Below are positions 6,484 through 61,821 of a stretch of DNA of 64,000 nucleotides, in pieces. The position numbers and the translations under genes are program-made. This DNA is from Acidovorax radicis N35. GTDB taxonomy: Bacteria > Pseudomonadota > Gammaproteobacteria > Burkholderiales > Burkholderiaceae_C. The stretch's first letter is position 1, and the number at the start of each line of letters is the position of its first letter. Under the pieces are notes generated by a model that worked only from the letters and a program-made list of their open reading frames with translations, was not told the origin of the DNA and made no database searches. The stretch lies in assembly GCF_000204195.1 (NCBI RefSeq), contig NZ_AFBG01000019.1:806001-870000 (forward strand), given 5' to 3'.

Positions 6484-6510
6484 AGGACTCGGCGGAAGCC
6501 GACACTACAC

Positions 6511-6561
6511 TTTTGATAGCATTTTGCGCTTGCCAGACAAGCGGCAGGCAGCTTTTTTATC
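6511..6561. repeat. Comamonadaceae-type palindromic repeat, copy 1 (terminator-like)
   Basis: CGCTTG-CCAGA-CAAGCG (6527-6543) with AT-rich arms (TTTTGATAG before, GCTTTTTTATC after). On the + strand the hairpin is followed by six T residues, so it could terminate the LysR transcript. It sits between the convergent LysR and alpha/beta hydrolase genes. The same architecture occurs at seven other places in the window. Confidence 0.8.
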
Positions 6562-6575
6562 TTAAAAGATCAGAC

Positions 6576-12694: not shown

Positions 12695-12713
12695 GGGGTT
12701 GTCTCCTTGTGAT

Positions 12714-12772
12714 TACTATTAATTTGATAGCTTCTAGCGCTTGACTATCAAGCGGTAGAGGCCGTTTTTATG
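12714..12772. repeat. Comamonadaceae-type palindromic repeat, copy 2
   Basis: CGCTTG-ACTAT-CAAGCG (12738-12754) with the usual AT-rich arms (ATTTGATAG before, CCGTTTTTATG after). It lies upstream of the Bug-protein gene. On the + strand it is followed by a T5 run. Confidence 0.75.
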
Positions 12773-12833
12773 GGTATTTTGCACCTGCTGCGGGAGCCTG
12801 GGGGCTGAACACGGTGCTCCATCGCTCGGCCCC

Positions 12834-12859
12834 GGCTTCGACAGGCTCAGCCCGAACGG
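12834..12859. repeat. CTTCGACAGGCTCAGCCCGA dispersed element, copy A
   Basis: A 26-bp element starting GGCTTCGACAGGCTCAG and ending CCCGAACGG. Two further close copies occur at 54271-54295 and 54313-54338. The element contains the inverted pair GGCT...AGCC. It is a known type of short intergenic repeat in proteobacteria; its function is not established. Confidence 0.7.
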
Positions 12860-12968
12860 GTGAGGGGTGGGCTGGCAGGCGCGACCTGTAGAACGAGCGG
12901 TGCGCGGGGCCCGCCCTGCCAGACAAGGCCGCTGCACATGCGCCCGCTACCAGCAGCCACTGGCTGCG

Positions 12969-40163: not shown

Positions 40164-40551
40164 TGCGCGGTTCCTCTTCTCTTTGCGTATGGCGGTATCG
40201 TCCCGCTTTGGGCACGCACTGCCTATCCTTCGCAAGGACACCTGGGGCGCGGCAGAAGGACTAGTCCGGGCCTACGCCACCGCGCCGGCCCATCGTCCGA
40301 AAGAACTATGGATGGATGACCAGGCAGGCGCGCGCAGCGGCGGGCCGGTTCGAGAGAGGAAATGCAGGGGAGGGACAGAGCACCAAGGCCCGCGGGCGCA
40401 ACGCTGCAGCGGCGACGGGCTCCGCACCGAAAAAATTCAGCAAAAAATGCCGCCAGCGCTTGATAGGAAAGCGCAAATAACTATTGAAAATATAGCAAAC
40501 ACCACGCACAGGCGACTGCACGGCCGTGCGCGCAGCGAATCCGCTATTCGG
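40164..40551. other. Gene-free stretch, presumed nar operon promoter region
   Basis: These 388 bases between narK1 and narL hold no supported gene. They contain palindromic repeat copy 3 at 40440-40496. I searched by eye for an FNR-type dyad (TTGAY-N4-RTCAA) and for NarL heptamer pairs and found none convincing, which is odd for a nar operon; control could be through another site or through readthrough from narXL. Confidence 0.55.
40440..40496 (-). repeat. Comamonadaceae-type palindromic repeat, copy 3 (terminator-like after narL)
   Basis: On the minus strand GCGCTT-TCCTATC-AAGCGC is followed by a T6 run 8 bp later, so it may terminate the narXL transcript. AT-rich arm sequences (TATAG, ATTGAAAATATAGC) match the other copies. 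Confidence 0.7.
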
Positions 40552-43389: not shown

Positions 43390-44256
43390 ATGCAACGACC
43401 CACACGCTCCCCCCTGCGGACCTGGCTGGCACTCGGCGGCACCCTGATGGCGCTGGCGGGCTGCGCGGGAGCCCCGCCCCCCGGCACCCTGGCCGCCACC
43501 CAGCCTGCCCCCCCATGGCCCGACCGCCTGCAGGCCCTGCTCCCCGCCGATGTGCTGCTGCTCGGCGAGCAGCACGATGCCCCCGACCACCAGCGCCTGC
43601 AGCGCGAAGCCGTGCTGTGGCTGGCGGCCCGGGGCCAGCTTGCCGCCGTGGTCCTGGAAATGGCCGAGAGCGGGCACCACACCCGGGCGCTGGCGCGCGA
43701 CGCCACCGAAGCCCAGGCCCAGGCCGCACTGCAGTGGAACGATGCCGCCTGGCCATGGAAGGCCTATGGCCCCGTGGTCATGGCGGCCGTGGCCGCCGGT
43801 GTGCCGGTGCTGGGTGGCAACCTGCCCCGCGCCCAGATGCGCGCCGCGATGGGCGAAACCGCCTGGGACCAGCACCTGCCGGCCCCCGCACTGGCGTTGC
43901 AGCACCAGGCGCTGCGCGACGGCCACTGCGGCCTGCTGCCGGAATCGCAAATCCCGCCCATGGCCCGCATCCAGATCGCCCGCGACGCGCGCATGGCCCA
44001 GACCGCCCAGGAGGCGCTTCGCCCCGGGCAGACGGTGCTGCTGGTGGCCGGGGGCGGCCATGTGCTGCGTGGCCTGGGCGTGCCCACCCACTGGCCTGCC
44101 AATCTGGTATCAAAAGTGGCCTTGGCGCAAGCAGGACAAGCGCCAAAAGCTATCAAAAATGATGCAGATACGGTGATCAACACCCCCGCCCTGCCCCCGC
44201 GCGATGCCTGTGCAGAGCTGCGCGCAAAATGGCGCCCGGCGTCCTCAGCGCCTTGA
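43390..44256 (+). CDS. ChaN family lipoprotein
   Basis: Protein of 288 residues with a lipoprotein signal peptide ending in the lipobox LAGC (Cys near residue 25), so it is an envelope lipoprotein. The ChaN domain shows DVLLLGEQHDAPDHQRLQRE, VLEMAESGHHTRAL and GQTVLLVAGGGHVLRGLGVP. The ChaN structure is linked to haem or iron handling in some bacteria. Residues about 240-257 (KVALAQAGQAPKAIKND) are encoded by a copy of the intergenic palindromic repeat read in frame. It is divergent from narX across an FNR-type palindrome. Confidence 0.85.
   Translation: MQRPTRSPLRTWLALGGTLMALAGCAGAPPPGTLAATQPAPPWPDRLQALLPADVLLLGEQHDAPDHQRLQREAVLWLAARGQLAAVVLEMAESGHHTRALARDATEAQAQAALQWNDAAWPWKAYGPVVMAAVAAGVPVLGGNLPRAQMRAAMGETAWDQHLPAPALALQHQALRDGHCGLLPESQIPPMARIQIARDARMAQTAQEALRPGQTVLLVAGGGHVLRGLGVPTHWPANLVSKVALAQAGQAPKAIKNDADTVINTPALPPRDACAELRAKWRPASSAP
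44108..44160. repeat. Palindromic repeat, copy 4, inside the ChaN-like coding sequence
   Basis: TTGGCGC and GCGCCAA arms with the flanks GGTATCAAAA and AGCTATCAAAAATGAT match the intergenic copies. It keeps the reading frame open and encodes the C-terminal segment after the conserved domain. Confidence 0.75.
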
Positions 44257-48430: not shown

Positions 48431-48445
48431 GCACCCATTTATTGG

Positions 48446-48501
48446 TGATTTTGACCGCCAGCGCTTGTCCACAAAGCGCCGCAAGCTATAAATTCAATAG
48501 C
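48446..48501. repeat. Comamonadaceae-type palindromic repeat, copy 5
   Basis: CAGCGCTTG-TCCA-CAAAGCG with the flanks GATTTTGACC and GCAAGCTATAAATTCAATAGC. It lies between the LysR gene and the helicase gene. Confidence 0.75.
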
Positions 48502-48633
48502 ATTCCTGAAGTATCTAGCCTTCACCTGTGGCGCTCAGGACTCCAGATTCCCACAGCCCGCCTGCCGCAGCCACCGGGCACGCGCCTTTCACATCTCGCC
48601 TGTCTCTTGACCCCTTCACCCCCTCACCACGCC

Positions 48634-50667: not shown

Positions 50668-50739
50668 CAAAATTTCGAGTCAAATTGGCCTTCAGCGCTT
50701 TATTCACAAGCGCAAGAAGCTATATAAATCATAGCAAAC
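50668..50739. repeat. Comamonadaceae-type palindromic repeat, copy 6
   Basis: CAGCGCTT-TATTCA-CAAGCGC with the AT-rich flanks AAAATTTCGAGTCAAATTGG and AAGCTATATAAATCATAGC. It lies between the helicase and the FAD oxidase gene. Confidence 0.75.
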
Positions 50740-50818
50740 AGCCACATCCAGGCCATTTCACAGACTGCTGCAAGAAAACTCACGCTCCCGCACGCAGCCT
50801 TCCTCTACAGTGGCAGCC

Positions 50819-54222: not shown

Positions 54223-54270
54223 CGGCTTCCGCACTCAACACCAGCATGCTTTTCTAACCAGCACGCCCAG

Positions 54271-54295
54271 GTTTCGACAAGCTCAGCCCGAACGG
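54271..54295. repeat. CTTCGACAGGCTCAGCCCGA element, copy B
   Basis: GTTTCGACAAGCTCAG followed by CCCGAACGG; differs from copy A (12834) at a few bases. It lies 17 bp before copy C. Confidence 0.7.
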
Positions 54296-54312
54296 TTGGG
54301 GTGGAGCGCCCT

Positions 54313-54338
54313 GGCTTCGACAGGCGCAGCCCGAACGG
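54313..54338. repeat. CTTCGACAGGCTCAGCCCGA element, copy C
   Basis: GGCTTCGACAGGCGCAG followed by CCCGAACGG; one base different from copy A in this stretch. It ends 4 bp from the stop of the DUF445 gene. Confidence 0.7.
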
Positions 54339-54342
54339 GTGG

Positions 54343-56850: not shown

Positions 56851-59800
56851 TCACCACGTGTCCACGAAACGGTGCCCCAGCTGCGCCACCTGCGCCGATG
56901 CCAACCCGCGCGCCAGCCACGCCCGCGTGTCAGCCGGGTCGATCACCGCGTCGATCTCCAGCGTGGCGGCCATGTGCATCGCCTCGCCATTGGCGTAGGA
57001 CTTGGCCAGCAGCTTGGCAAACAGCGCATCGCGCTCGGCGCCTTCGGGCAGCGCCTCCAGCTCCTTGCGAAAGCCCAGGCGCACTGCGCCTTCGAGCCCC
57101 ATGGCGCCGAACTCTCCTGTGGGCCAGGCGACAGTGAACACGGGCGCATGGAAGCCCCCGGCCGTCATGCCCATGGCACCCAGGCCGTAGCCCTTGCGCA
57201 GCACCACGCTGAAGGTGGGTACACGCAGGCTGGCGGCGGTGACGAACAGGCGGCTCACGTGGCGCACCTGGGCCGTGGCTTCGACCTCGGGGCCGACCAT
57301 GAATCCGGGTGTGTCCACCAGGCTCACGATGGGCAGGCCATGTGCATTGCACAGCTGCATGAAGCGCGCGCCCTTGTCGGCCGCATCGGCGTCAATGGCG
57401 CCGCCCAGGTGCTGCGGGTTGTTGGCCAGCAGGCCCACGGGGCGGCCTTCGATGCGCGCGAGTGCGGTGTGGATGCCGGCACCGAAGCCGGTGCGCAGCA
57501 GCAGCAGGCTGCCCTCGTCGACCAGGCCCGCCATCGCCGTGCGGGTGTCGTACACGCGCAGGCGGTTCTCTGGCACCACGGCGCGCAGCAGGCGCTGGTC
57601 GGGTGCAGACCACTGCGATGTGCGGCCCTGGAAGAACGACAGGTAGTGGCGCGCAGCCTGCACCGCCCCGGCTTCGTCGTCCACCAGCACGTCGATCACG
57701 CCATTGGCATGCTGCACGCGGCTGGGGCCGATCTGCTCGGGCTTGAAGACGCCCAGTCCGCCGCCTTCGATCATGGCCGGGCCGCCCATGCCGATGTTGC
57801 TGCCGCGCGTGGCGATGATCACATCGCTGCAGCCCAGCAGCGCCGCGTTGCCCGCAAAGCACCGCCCCGCCGCGATGCCGATCACCGGCACCTGGCCCGA
57901 CAGTGCGGCGTAGCTGGCAAACGTGTGCACGTGCAGGCCTGCCACGATGGGCATGTCGGTATCGCCCGGGCGTCCACCGCCGCCTTCGGCAAACAGCACC
58001 ACCGGGAGCTTCTGCGCCAGCGCGATGCCGAGCATACGGTCGGTCTTGGCGTGGTTGCGCGCGCCCTGGGTGCCAGCCAGCACGGTGGCGTCGTACGACA
58101 TGACCACGGCGCGGGACTTCTCGTCGCCAAACAGTGCGCCATTGATGCCGCCAATGCCCGTGACCATGCCATCGGCGGGCGTGTTGGCAATCAGGTCCTC
58201 CTTGCTGCGGCGGCGCGCCTGCGCGGCGATGGCGAGGGCGCCATATTCGATGAAGCTGCCGTCGTCGCACAGGTCGGCAATGTTCTCGCGCGCGGAGCGG
58301 CCACCTTGCGCGTGGCGCTTGGCCATGGCGTCGGGGCGCGCCGCGTCGAGCGTGAAGGCGTGGCGGTCGATCACGCGTTGCAGGTCGGCGCGGATGTGGT
58401 GCGGGTCATGTGCCATACCGCCCTGCACTTCGACATCGGCCGCCTCATCCACCGCGTCCAGCACCAGCAGCGGCTGCCCCTGCGCGATGTAGCCACCGGC
58501 CACGGCCAGCAGCGCGCCGACGCGGCCCGCGTGTGGGGCCAGCAGCACATGCTCCATCTTCATGGCTTCGAGCACGGCCAGCTCGGCGCCGGCAGCGACC
58601 ACGTCGCCCTCGGCCACGCTGAGCTGCACCAGGCGGGCGGGCATGGGGGCCAGCACGGCGCCTTCGGGTGCAGGCATTGAGAAATTTGAGTCTTTTTGGC
58701 CGCTAGCGCTTGATGGATAAGCGCTAGCAGCTATGTTTTTTGAAGCATTTAGCAATTCAGGCAACACGGATTCCAGCCAGCGTGTGTGCACCTGCTGGCT
58801 CTCCATCTCAGGCCGTGTTGCCAGCGCCTGCAGCAGCGCGAGGTTGGTGGCCACACCGTCGATGCGGCACTCGGCCAGCGCGCGCTGCGAGCGGCGCAGC
58901 GCATCGGCAAAACGCGGGCTGCGCGTGTGCACGATGAGCTTGGCCAGCAGCGTGTCGTAGTGCGGTGACGGCGCGGCGCCCGCTGCGCCATGGGTGTCCA
59001 CACGCACGCCGGGGCCTGTGGGCAGGTCAAAGCGCTTCAGCGTGCCGCTGCCGGGCGTGGCGCCGCCCTGCGCATCCAGCGTCTCGGCGTTGATGCGCCA
59101 CTGCACCGCAAAGCCCAACACGGCAGGCGGTGCGGCAGGGTCGAGGCCGATGTCTTGCAACGTGCGGCCCGCGGCCAGCGCGATCTGCGCCTGCACCAGG
59201 TCCACGCCGGTGACCTCTTCGGTGATGGTGTGCTCCACCTGCAGGCGCGGGTTGCATTCGATGAAGACAAACGGCAGGTCGCTCGACGCCAAGTCCACCA
59301 GAAACTCGAAGGTGCCCAGGCCTTCGTACTGCACCGCCCGCGCCATGGACAGTGCGGCGGTGGTGATGCGCTCGCGCAGCGCTGCGGGCAGCGAAGGGCT
59401 GGGCGCGATCTCCACCACCTTCTGAAAGCGCCGCTGCAGCGTGCATTCGCGCTCGCCCAGCGCGATCACTTCGCGTCCGTCGCCCAGCACCTGCACCTCG
59501 ATATGGCGGGCGTTGCCCATCAGGCGCTCCACGTACACGCCGTCCACACCAAAGGCGGCCTGCGCCTCGCTGCGGCAGCGCGCGTAGGCAGCGGGCAAGT
59601 CATCGGCCGACGCCACCGCACGCATGCCCCGCCCGCCGCCGCCACCGATGGCCTTGATCACGATGCCTGCATGGGCGTGCTGCCCAAAGAAGGCCTGCGC
59701 CTCCTGCAGCGTCACCGCCGCCTGCGTGCCAGGCATGAGCGGCACGCTCTGCTGCTGCGCCAGCGCACGGGCCTGCGCCTTGTCGCCGAACAGCGCGAGC

Positions 59801-60138
59801 TGCGCAGGCGTGGGGCCGATGAAGCGCAGCCCCGCCTCGGCGCACGCGCGGGCAAAGTCGGCACGCTCGCTCAAGAAGCCGTAGCCCGGGTGCACGGCAT
59901 CGCAGCCCTGCGCCTGGGCAATGGTGATGAGGCGTGCGCCGTCCAGGTACGCCGCCGGGCCGGTGGCGCCCAGTGCCACGGCCGCACTGGCTGCGTGCAC
60001 ATGGGGGCTGGCGGCGTCATCGTCGGCATACACGGCCACGCTGGCAATGCCCAGGTCGTGCAGGGCGCGCACAGTGCGCAGTGCGATTTCGCCCCGGTTG
60101 GCAACCAGCACTTTGGTGAACAGAACAGAAGATGGCAT
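56851..60138 (-). CDS. Single-chain biotin-dependent acyl-CoA carboxylase (BC-BCCP-CT fusion)
   Basis: Protein of 1095 residues combining three functions. Biotin carboxylase occupies about 1-460 (KVLVANRGEIALRTVRA at the start, the glycine-rich AIGGGGGRGMRAV loop and ECNPRLQVEHTITEEVTG). The biotin carrier domain is about 490-565, with biotinylated Lys527 in LEAMKMEHVLL. Carboxyltransferase is about 575-1095 (GGRSARENIADL, FAEGGGGRPGDTD, VDTPGFMVGPEVE). It should carboxylate an acyl-CoA (acetyl-, propionyl- or a longer substrate; not decidable). Residues about 465-486 of the linker are encoded by an in-frame palindromic repeat copy. It follows an acyl-CoA ligase gene, which suggests activation then carboxylation of an acid. 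Confidence 0.92.
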   Translation of the reverse strand: MPSSVLFTKVLVANRGEIALRTVRALHDLGIASVAVYADDDAASPHVHAASAAVALGATGPAAYLDGARLITIAQAQGCDAVHPGYGFLSERADFARACAEAGLRFIGPTPAQLALFGDKAQARALAQQQSVPLMPGTQAAVTLQEAQAFFGQHAHAGIVIKAIGGGGGRGMRAVASADDLPAAYARCRSEAQAAFGVDGVYVERLMGNARHIEVQVLGDGREVIALGERECTLQRRFQKVVEIAPSPSLPAALRERITTAALSMARAVQYEGLGTFEFLVDLASSDLPFVFIECNPRLQVEHTITEEVTGVDLVQAQIALAAGRTLQDIGLDPAAPPAVLGFAVQWRINAETLDAQGGATPGSGTLKRFDLPTGPGVRVDTHGAAGAAPSPHYDTLLAKLIVHTRSPRFADALRRSQRALAECRIDGVATNLALLQALATRPEMESQQVHTRWLESVLPELLNASKNIAASAYPSSASGQKDSNFSMPAPEGAVLAPMPARLVQLSVAEGDVVAAGAELAVLEAMKMEHVLLAPHAGRVGALLAVAGGYIAQGQPLLVLDAVDEAADVEVQGGMAHDPHHIRADLQRVIDRHAFTLDAARPDAMAKRHAQGGRSARENIADLCDDGSFIEYGALAIAAQARRRSKEDLIANTPADGMVTGIGGINGALFGDEKSRAVVMSYDATVLAGTQGARNHAKTDRMLGIALAQKLPVVLFAEGGGGRPGDTDMPIVAGLHVHTFASYAALSGQVPVIGIAAGRCFAGNAALLGCSDVIIATRGSNIGMGGPAMIEGGGLGVFKPEQIGPSRVQHANGVIDVLVDDEAGAVQAARHYLSFFQGRTSQWSAPDQRLLRAVVPENRLRVYDTRTAMAGLVDEGSLLLLRTGFGAGIHTALARIEGRPVGLLANNPQHLGGAIDADAADKGARFMQLCNAHGLPIVSLVDTPGFMVGPEVEATAQVRHVSRLFVTAASLRVPTFSVVLRKGYGLGAMGMTAGGFHAPVFTVAWPTGEFGAMGLEGAVRLGFRKELEALPEGAERDALFAKLLAKSYANGEAMHMAATLEIDAVIDPADTRAWLARGLASAQVAQLGHRFVDTW
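58681..58746. repeat. Palindromic repeat, copy 7, inside the carboxylase gene
   Basis: GCTAGCGCTT-GATGGAT-AAGCGCTAGC (58702-58728) is a perfect 10-bp stem with a 7-nt loop, flanked by AAATTTGAGTCTTTTTGG and AGCTATGTTTTTTGAAG. It is the best-preserved copy of the family in the window and is read in frame as part of the linker between biotin carboxylase and biotin carrier domains. Confidence 0.85.
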
Positions 60139-60144
60139 GGGGCA

Positions 60145-60203
60145 GTCGCTATATTTTGTATAGCTGCCAGCGCATATTCATCAGGCGCAAACAGCCAATT
60201 TCT
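60145..60203. repeat. Comamonadaceae-type palindromic repeat, copy 8 (degenerate)
   Basis: TATAGCTGCCAGCGCATATTC followed by TCAGGCGCAAACAGCCAATTT keeps the arms and AT-rich flanks but the stem is imperfect. It lies in the 72-bp space between the ligase and the carboxylase gene. Confidence 0.6.
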
Positions 60204-60210
60204 CACTCAA

Positions 60211-61821
60211 TCAAGCAATATCCCGAAGCAGGCGGCGCAGCACTTTGCCAGCGCCAGTGGCGGGCAGTGCGTCGATGAAACGCACCTCGCGCGGGGCTTT
60301 GTAGGGGGCCATGTTCTCGCGACACCAGGCCACCAGGCCGGCGGCGTCCAACTCCTGGCCGGGCTTCTTGACGATGAAGGCGCGCACCACCTCGCCCTTT
60401 TCTGCATCGGGCACGCCAATCACAGCGGCCTGGGCCACGGCGGGGTGTTTGATGAGCAAGGTCTCGACCTCTTCGGGGAACACGCTGTAGCCCGAAACCT
60501 TGATCATTTCCTTGAAACGGCCGATGAAGGTGACATAGCCATCCGCATCGATCTTGCCCATGTCGCCGGTGTAGACCCAGCCGTCACGCAGGGTCTTGGC
60601 CGTGGCGTCGGGCTTGTTCCAGTAGCCCTTGAAGTTGCCGGGGCCGTGGATGGTGATCTCGCCCACATCGCCAACGGCCAGCGGTGTGCCGGTGTCGGGG
60701 TCGACGATGCGCAGGGTGTTACCCGGCACGGGCTTGCCCTGGGTGCCCCAGCGAATGGCGTCCACCGGCATGGCGGTATCCACCGTGTGGGTTTCCGACA
60801 GGCCATAGGCCGCCTCGTGCGCAATGCAGTTCGGCGCGAACTGCTGCCACTGCTGCGCCAGCGCCTCGGTGAAGGTGATGCCAAAGCTCGTGACCGGGTT
60901 GCGGCGCAGCGCGCTCCAGTCCATGTCGCGTGCGCCTGGCACCTGCATGAGCGCGCCGTTCATGGGCGCGATGCTGTACCACCAGGTCACGCGGTGGCGC
61001 TCCAGAGCCTGGGCCACGCCCAGTGGGTCAAAACGGTACAGCAGCACGGCGGTGGCGCCGGTGTAGACCGGCAGGTTCACGCCCATCACCATGCCGGCGA
61101 TGTGGTACAGCGGCGCCACGGCCAGCAGCGTTTCGTGCGGCGTCATGCCGTTGCAGTCGGCCGAGGCAGCGGTCTTGAACGTGGCATTGCCATAGCTCAG
61201 CATCGCGCCCTTCGGTAACCCGGTGGTGCCCGAGGTGTAGGTCATCAGCGAGACGTCGTCCATCGACAGCGCCACGGGCGTGGGCATCGCGCCTGTGCGG
61301 GTGGCGGCCAGGAAGTCTTCGCAGCCCGCAGGCACCGGCGCCATGGCGGCGCGCATGGCCAGCAGCTCGGCGGGTACGTCGATGCTGGGCGCGCCCTCGG
61401 GCAGCAGCTCGGCATAGCGCACCACAAACACCTGCTGCAGCGCGGTCTTCGCGCGCACCTTGTCCACCACGGGCAGCAGCACATCGGCCGCGACGATCAC
61501 GCGCGCCTGCAGGTCGGTGAGCTGGTACTCCAGCTCATGCTCCTTGTTCAGCGGCCCGCAAGGACAGACGATGGCGCCGATCTTCTGGATGCCGTAGTGC
61601 GCCATCACGTACTGCGGGCAGTTGTTCATGAACAGCGCCACGGGCTCGCCCTTGGCCACACCCAGCGCCTGCAGGCGCGCGGCAAATGCATCACTGGCCG
61701 CATCAAGCTGCGCCCACGTGAGGGGCTGGCCGTACCAGAGGTAGGCGATGCGGTCGGGCGTTTCGCGCGCGTGGCGGCGCAGGTGTTCGTGCAGCGGCAG
61801 CTGCGGTGCGGCAGAAGGCAT
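60211..61821 (-). CDS. Acyl-CoA synthetase (AMP-forming ligase)
   Basis: ANL-superfamily ligase of 536 residues that activates a carboxylic acid to its CoA thioester via an acyl-adenylate. The P-loop is YTSGTTGLPKGAMLSYGN near residue 200; A5 is AAYGLSETHTVD, and A7-A8 is DGWVYTGDMGKIDADGYVTFIGRFKEMIKVSGYSV. The catalytic Lys is in ALPATGAGKVLRRLL at the C-terminus. The pattern fits medium/long-chain or carnitine/crotonobetaine-type ligases; the acid is unknown. ATG 61821 is chosen because the frame upstream has no family pattern. It is the first gene of the leftward operon and diverges from a TetR regulator. Confidence 0.91.
   Translation of the reverse strand: MPSAAPQLPLHEHLRRHARETPDRIAYLWYGQPLTWAQLDAASDAFAARLQALGVAKGEPVALFMNNCPQYVMAHYGIQKIGAIVCPCGPLNKEHELEYQLTDLQARVIVAADVLLPVVDKVRAKTALQQVFVVRYAELLPEGAPSIDVPAELLAMRAAMAPVPAGCEDFLAATRTGAMPTPVALSMDDVSLMTYTSGTTGLPKGAMLSYGNATFKTAASADCNGMTPHETLLAVAPLYHIAGMVMGVNLPVYTGATAVLLYRFDPLGVAQALERHRVTWWYSIAPMNGALMQVPGARDMDWSALRRNPVTSFGITFTEALAQQWQQFAPNCIAHEAAYGLSETHTVDTAMPVDAIRWGTQGKPVPGNTLRIVDPDTGTPLAVGDVGEITIHGPGNFKGYWNKPDATAKTLRDGWVYTGDMGKIDADGYVTFIGRFKEMIKVSGYSVFPEEVETLLIKHPAVAQAAVIGVPDAEKGEVVRAFIVKKPGQELDAAGLVAWCRENMAPYKAPREVRFIDALPATGAGKVLRRLLRDIA

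Follow-up and report, generated by a model that had tools for sequence, protein, structure and literature searches.

How does a palindromic repeat of a family found mostly between genes come to be read as protein inside a carboxylase, and what has happened to it since it settled there? We examined these questions in a 64,000-nucleotide stretch of DNA from Acidovorax radicis N35, referred to below as the window, which lies on contig C12 of a 5.53-Mb genome (G000, the own genome), and in further genomes of the same genus and taxonomic family. The reading that we favor, with a probability of about 0.6, is that the repeat belongs to a REP-like family under concerted evolution, protein-coding copies included, in which copies would be overwritten from one another.

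A palindromic repeat is translated in the carboxylase linker

The host gene encodes a protein of 1095 residues, whose closest solved structure is that of the long-chain acyl-CoA carboxylase 4rcn. The repeat lies between the Biotin_carb_C (residues 346-456) and Biotin_lipoyl (residues 495-560) domains and is translated in frame as ASKNIAASAYPSSASGQKDSNF. In the sense of the mRNA, it runs from a CT dinucleotide through an AT-rich spacer and an ATAG tag to a 13-pair stem with a 7-nt loop, followed by CAAAAAGACTCAAATTT. The gene and the parts of the repeat are located as follows.

56851-60138, minus strand: host gene, fused biotin carboxylase, biotin carrier and carboxyltransferase (open reading frame and Pfam domains)
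58681-58751, minus strand: repeat element as modelled, 71 positions (covariance-model match G000:C12:864681-864751; weight-matrix score 104.0)
58744-58745, minus strand: conserved CT, 11 and 10 nt upstream of the tag
58731-58734, minus strand: ATAG tag, its G being the first base of the left arm
58719-58731, minus strand: left arm of the 13-pair stem (predicted fold)
58699-58711, minus strand: right arm of the 13-pair stem (predicted fold)
58696-58734, minus strand: 39-nt core, ATAGCT...GGCCAA, used for the cross-locus tests; the part that varies between genomes is core positions +5 to +38

An earlier note on this DNA had described the repeat as the best-preserved member of a palindromic family, lying in frame in the linker between the biotin carboxylase and carrier domains, with a 10-bp perfect stem and a strong hairpin in the coding mRNA. 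Our analysis confirmed this description. The 10-bp stem, GCTAGCGCTT/AAGCGCTAGC, has one exact match in the window and one with three mismatches, against an expectation of 0.00 from 100 shuffles. The predicted fold of the mRNA is a 13-pair hairpin of -24.3 kcal/mol, and none of 200 shuffled sequences was as stable. The carboxylase copy had the top score among the 150 candidates scored with a covariance model, which itself includes this copy, and the highest score of the eight copies in the window with a weight matrix, which omits it, although the copies used to build that matrix had been retrieved by their similarity to it. As to the extent of the repeat, the 10-bp stem is real, but the conserved unit is not the stem alone and measures ~66-71 bp. 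A search of Rfam with window positions 58550-58900 returned two matches, both below the gathering score and outside the element, and membership of a known RNA family was rejected.

The repeat belongs to a dispersed, mostly intergenic family

A similarity search of the own genome with a 101-bp piece of the carboxylase gene found at least 43 matches (the best 40 of 296 candidates were scored), and a covariance-model search found at least 150 (the best 150 of 3634 candidates were scored), the weakest of them at 4.2e-8. A weight-matrix scan of 464 kb that had not been picked for the repeat revealed 57 copies, or about 120 per Mb: 8 are in the window and the other 49 in a 400-kb part of contig C13. 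With the same matrix, no copies were found in three simulated 400-kb sequences or in the reversed sequence of C13. The seven copies in the window besides that of the carboxylase, all intergenic, are listed here.

60143-60213, plus strand: copy on the 5' side of the carboxylase gene, matrix score 58.8
50670-50740, minus strand: matrix score 87.8
48436-48506, minus strand: matrix score 56.1
44100-44170, minus strand: diverged copy, matrix score 30.9
40431-40501, minus strand: matrix score 72.3
12710-12780, plus strand: matrix score 85.9
6499-6569, plus strand: diverged copy, matrix score 29.5

Judged by our own coding score, 45 of the 57 census copies are intergenic (17 between convergent, 23 between codirectional and 5 between divergent genes), 6 are intragenic, and 6 are unclear. 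We also inspected 79 further copies from the own genome together with their flanks; in this set, which was picked by score and is biased toward well-kept copies, none of the 45 copies assigned as intergenic lay between divergent genes. The bases kept in nearly all copies are CT, TAG, and GCG: in the census, C at -11 and T at -10 occur at frequencies of 0.93 and 0.95, G at +3 is present in 57/57, and GCG is conserved in both arms. The tag reads (A/G)TAG in 51 of the 57 copies (ATAG in 48 and GTAG in 3), bases that the search matrix itself favors. Dispersed copies from four genomes, sampled by best score, form on average 10.5 to 11.3 of the 13 pairs.

A second short repeat, built around CTTCGACAGGCTCAGCCCGAACGG, has three copies in the window (12829-12862, 54265-54298, and 54308-54341). 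Sequence similar to it adjoins some copies of the element, for example, L083 and L088.

Copies are translated in several unrelated genes

Among 80 copies of the own genome (the 79 just mentioned and that of the carboxylase), eight sense copies and one antisense copy have coding sequence on both sides, as assigned by our own codon score rather than by annotation. The capture is therefore one of several. The seven sense copies beyond the carboxylase, each in frame, lie in the following genes.

L066: ThiL (Pfam family; the name ThiL is from a PDB match)
L067: patatin-like protein (Pfam)
L073: acyl-CoA dehydrogenase (Pfam)
L087: UvrD-like helicase (Pfam)
L094: FemAB-like protein (Pfam)
L101: SrkA/YihE-like kinase (Pfam family; the name YihE is from a PDB match, SrkA being another name for it)
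L286: a protein that presumably resembles DnaE2

The antisense copy, L312 (G000:C13:895120-897180), lies in a gene whose product presumably resembles the RNA helicase HrpA; it is translated, and an altered loop removes the stop codon of the consensus. Two other sense copies, L084 and L099, touch only an N terminus, and five antisense copies (L075, L289, L293, L303, and L310) have coding sequence on one side only. The census scan added five intragenic copies on C13 that are more diverged and are read in other frames, so a single-frame rule is limited to consensus-like copies. The proposal that the element has exactly one open frame was thus rejected: it holds for the consensus of the own genome, whereas the diverged C13 copies and the antisense copy L312 are read otherwise.

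In L100 (G000:C28:1610-3670), the copy forms what appears to be the signal-peptide-like N terminus of a polysaccharide deacetylase, AHFAICFVAVSAFVSSASAQKD. The copy in L099 is likewise at the N-terminal end, here of an ABC-type auxiliary lipoprotein.

The protein sites are old and shared across the genus

We compared four of the host genes, those of the carboxylase, the acyl-CoA dehydrogenase, ThiL, and SrkA, across the genus. For each gene, 30 orthologues were fetched, being the best matches among the 42 to 45 genomes that have one (35 in one search), and 20 more regions were added. In all four genes, the element occupies the same codon position in most of the fetched orthologues, and on this ground, the alignments indicate that the four captures are old. 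At the position of the element, 28 of the 30 dehydrogenases align, with gaps in G016 and G020, and ThiL and SrkA align in 30/30, the SrkA sequences of G008 and G012 being strongly altered. The carboxylase linker measures 123 nt in 22 of 30 orthologues (range, 111-141 nt); most of these linkers carry altered versions of the element, and only G000, G009, and G011 retain a perfect stem. Of 27 carboxylase loci from other genera, 20 had linkers that could be parsed; these were 105-156 nt long, whether or not an element could be seen, and remnants were recognized by eye in at least five loci (L039, L040, L042, L043, and L044). Alignments with PDB homologues gave only a small net insertion.

The family itself was matched in 43 of 46 genomes of the genus at 1e-4. 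The exceptions were G001, G008, and G013, which had no match, and the family was nearly absent from G016, G020, and G044 (two, one, and one matches, respectively, all weak). In the taxonomic family, 36 of 200 genomes and 28 of 141 genera had matches at 1e-6, in a scan that used a model trained on one genome, 25 scored candidates per genome, and strict filters.

Where a genome had zero to two matches, the slots that we examined contained relics of the element or lacked it; the carboxylase of G008 (L339) is outside this set. Readable relics were found in the ThiL slots of G008 (LIAESAYETC) and G001 (LMAESARETS). In G013, G016, and G044, the linker of the carboxylase contains no visible element and is 2-4 codons shorter, and the slots of G044 are shorter than those of the own genome by 6 codons in ThiL, 7 in the dehydrogenase, and 10 in SrkA. 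In none of the slots examined did we see a clean empty site. In view of these small differences in length, either local loop sequence gave way to the element or the relics shrank later.

G020 nearly lacks the family, and its carboxylase (L342) has a linker that consists of a long stretch of Glu-Pro and Ala-Pro repeats.

The earlier note had pictured one repeat that added about 22 residues and had predicted a clean gap of 20-25 residues in orthologues. Such a gap was not borne out by the linker lengths or by the slots of G044, the picture is too narrow, and a simple insertion of 22 residues was rejected, as linker and slot lengths disagree with it. That a dispersed, mostly intergenic repeat has become protein sequence in a linker is supported. 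The earlier interpretation is therefore partly supported, being right in kind and wrong in scale and dynamics.

Coding copies in unrelated genes share genome-specific variants

In the four unrelated genes, variants specific to a genome are confined to the 34-nt stem-loop, and the flanks remain gene-specific. Unrelated genes of G021 thus encode RANNTWTSG, QANDSWTSA, and RANNTGTSG, and those of G022 encode AYLSRGNG, AYLSRGEG, and AYAERGEG. The slots of G018 and G019 contain GCGGT where those of the own genome contain GCGCT; in G018, GCGGT is present in all four coding copies and in 17 of 20 sampled dispersed copies.

Permutation showed that copies at different loci are more alike within a genome than expected. 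In 24 genomes, this held for all six locus pairs (8, 0, 3, 0, 0, and 0 of 10000 permutations reached the observed value). In a set thinned to 14 genomes, copies of one genome shared 237 derived bases, compared with 125.7 on permutation (sd, 10.3; maximum of 500, 160), and per locus pair the observed number was reached in 12, 1, 56, 0, 1, and 0 of 10000 permutations. When both copies carried a derived base, it was the same base with a frequency of 0.655 within genomes and 0.499 on permutation (sd, 0.032; maximum of 1000, 0.616), a conditioning that discounts overall divergence, which is greater at all loci in some genomes. Frame-shift controls of this measure gave 0.326, 0.259, 0.202, and 0.246 within and 0.250, 0.218, 0.215, and 0.241 between genomes; they were flat save for shift -6, the first of these pairs, which showed some excess.

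Position by position in 24 genomes, genome identity explained 16 of the 34 positions of the core. In the flanks, it did so for 1 of 17 varying positions on the left and 2 of 24 on the right, and these flanks were explained by locus. The test used no clade labels assigned by eye; relatedness was handled only by the thinning to 14 genomes, where genome identity explained 13 core, 1 left-flank, and 0 right-flank positions. When each locus was left out in turn, the own genome of the copy was in first place in 20 of the 56 cases of the thinned set and in the top three in 31 (mean rank, 3.66; chance, 7.5); with all 24 genomes, close relatives kept, it ranked first in 22 of 96 and among the top three in 48 of 96.

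We also compared coding copies with dispersed copies, sampling 14 of the latter from G005, 20 from G018, 23 from G022, and only 3 from G021. Coding copies fitted the variants of the dispersed copies of their own genome (its dialect) best in 15 of 16 cases (G000, 4; G005, 4; G022, 4; and G018, 3 of 4), the cases of G000 being favored in that its reference copies had been retrieved with the carboxylase copy as query. The samples of G005, G018, and G022 were drawn from the top matches of a model that had been trained on the own genome, a bias that should weaken the dialects. With nine further genomes grouped by eye, the count was 44 of 47, a figure that is partly circular, so that the 15 of 16 is the cleaner part. 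Three copies fitted another dialect best: that of SrkA in G018 and those of the dehydrogenase in G009 and G011. The grouping by eye preceded the gene tree and partly disagrees with it, in that the tree places G031 with G017 and G027.

The element variants of G031 look nearer to those of G022 and G028, as though dialects and tree were not in strict agreement.

GCGGT disrupts the stem, and in 114 coding copies, 8.9 of the 13 pairs are retained on average, which argues that pairing is not the main thing kept. The two arms covary slightly (21, 175, 75, and 10 of 2000 arm shuffles reached the observed value), and selection on base pairing was rejected as the explanation.

Proposed overwriting between copies and its rivals

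According to the favored reading, a REP-like element would long ago have entered loops and linkers that tolerate it in several proteins, in most cases in the open frame of the consensus, and other copies in that genome would since have overwritten its stem-loop again and again. The route may have been non-allelic gene conversion or the annealing of single-stranded repeat DNA at replication forks, and a TnpA-REP-type nuclease possibly takes part. Because overwriting preserves length, coding copies would keep their frame and yet track the current dialect of the genome; once the family is lost, the slots would drift, shrink, and gain GC. The 34-nt extent of the genome-specific stretch, with sharp edges at the stem-loop and the loop included, fits copying better than it fits a factor that reads a few bases. 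Against this stand the facts that no overwriting event was seen directly and that a 34-nt tract is short for ordinary RecA recombination. The more specific proposal that overwriting is active, keeping hundreds of stem-loops alike and rewriting the loops of unrelated enzymes together, perhaps via annealing at replication forks, we regard as tentative, possible rather than probable.

Each coding copy could instead have been inserted once and then changed alone, which is the earlier view made older. The age of the slots, common to the genus, and the merely decayed look of some copies agree with this, but unrelated genes of one genome share derived bases and the coding copies of a genome fit its own dispersed copies, and given the tests of shared derived bases, independent decay is improbable and strongly disfavored. 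The protein sites might also be hot spots that lost the element precisely and re-received copies in the current dialect. In-frame, protein-coding palindromic elements are known from Rickettsia and Wolbachia (PMC2229807, PMC10969869). The same codon is used in four genes with gene-specific flanks kept, which would demand many precise re-entries, and genomes without the family have relics or shorter loops rather than a clean empty site; we give this explanation very little credence.

A further possibility is that a trans-acting factor, be it a protein that binds DNA or RNA or an uptake receptor as in Neisseria, prefers the motif and that the sites follow this preference as it changes, without copying between them, each mutating or being replaced by alleles of the same site. 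DNA uptake sequences are short single motifs of 10-12 bp. Like the element, those of the Neisseriaceae are repeated motifs with lineage- or species-specific dialects that also occur in genes and sometimes as dyads (PMC3630211). The retention of a few bases (CT, TAG, and GCG) in nearly all copies would also suit such a drive. However, the genome-specific part of the element is a continuous stretch of 34 nt that includes the loop and not a few recognized bases. Outside the elements, most half-sites are not enriched relative to one simulated sequence (ATAGCTGC, 7 versus 7; GCTAGCGC, 7 versus 17), with TAGCGCTT (15 versus 7) and AAGCGCTAG (3 versus 1) being higher. A binding-site drive is thus unlikely, though it deserves some weight, and a short uptake motif is mostly unsupported by these counts.

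Relation to known repeats

GTAG-tagged REPs are short palindromes with a one-sided tetranucleotide that occur by the hundred, for the most part between genes and seldom between divergent ones, and REP elements have been reported inside open reading frames, including UvrD/Rep helicase and DnaE2 genes (PMC3733652). For the TnpA-REP system of E. coli, another report gives CT as the cleavage dinucleotide and GTAG as crucial for cleavage (PMC8266576). The element shares with REPs and REPINs the stem-loop, the high copy number, and a mostly intergenic placement with few copies between divergent genes and some within genes. Its CT, its (A/G)TAG, and its stem-loop are similar to the substrate that TnpA-REP nucleases act on. 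It differs in its tag, which is seldom GTAG, and in a unit of ~66-71 bp with AT-rich borders, and no gene-plus-repeat arrangement (REPtron) for the element was found at the Y1_Tnp regions examined. Because of the differing tag and the lack of a REPtron at these regions, we call the element REP-like and do not file it as a REP.

The palindromic elements (RPEs) of Rickettsia and Wolbachia, 105-150 bp long in the reports cited above, are likewise translated in frame within unrelated conserved proteins. Compared by description only, the element has a shorter core (39 nt) and is far more often intergenic (45/57). BRE is a dispersed repeat of Bordetella and the Comamonadaceae with some copies that are wholly coding; Bordetella BREs are 75-91 bp long, have an average GC content of 69%, are often in tandem, and number at most 29 per genome (PMC3110155). 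The element is likewise dispersed with some coding copies and is set apart, by description and not by alignment, by its AT-rich borders and far greater frequency.

Since REPs in open reading frames and the palindromes of Rickettsia and Wolbachia are in print, the capture of a repeat in genes is as such already known. In searches of an open-access library, we found no description of the element or of concerted change in coding copies, and it is this change that is worth following. Active overwriting, if true, would mean that genes for non-homologous proteins evolve in concert by way of a 34-nt repeat that they contain. Selection or chance is usually invoked when unrelated proteins change in parallel at set positions; copying of an embedded repeat would explain such change, with a bearing on how these residues are interpreted in phylogenies and enzyme studies. 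The coding copies also offer a test of how a REP-like family remains uniform in a single genome: as each has fixed borders and a frame, every overwriting event should appear as a bounded tract between strains.

Y1_Tnp genes and the family

Genes of the Y1_Tnp (RAYT) type were found in 43 of the 46 genomes of the genus, including all six without or nearly without the family. They were missing from three genomes that bear it (G030, G034, and G041), whose assemblies are 82-90% complete. None of ~19 Y1_Tnp loci examined was flanked by good copies of the element, weak adjacent matches being present only in G018 and G019. As these genes occur in genomes with and without the family and are unflanked by good copies, the link to a TnpA-REP nuclease is a lead only, and a RAYT-type gene as the cause of presence or absence of the family was rejected for want of correlation. 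In G046, of the same genus, there were 37 Y1_Tnp matches, many with identical scores, and this set looks like a recently spread element of the IS200/IS605 type.
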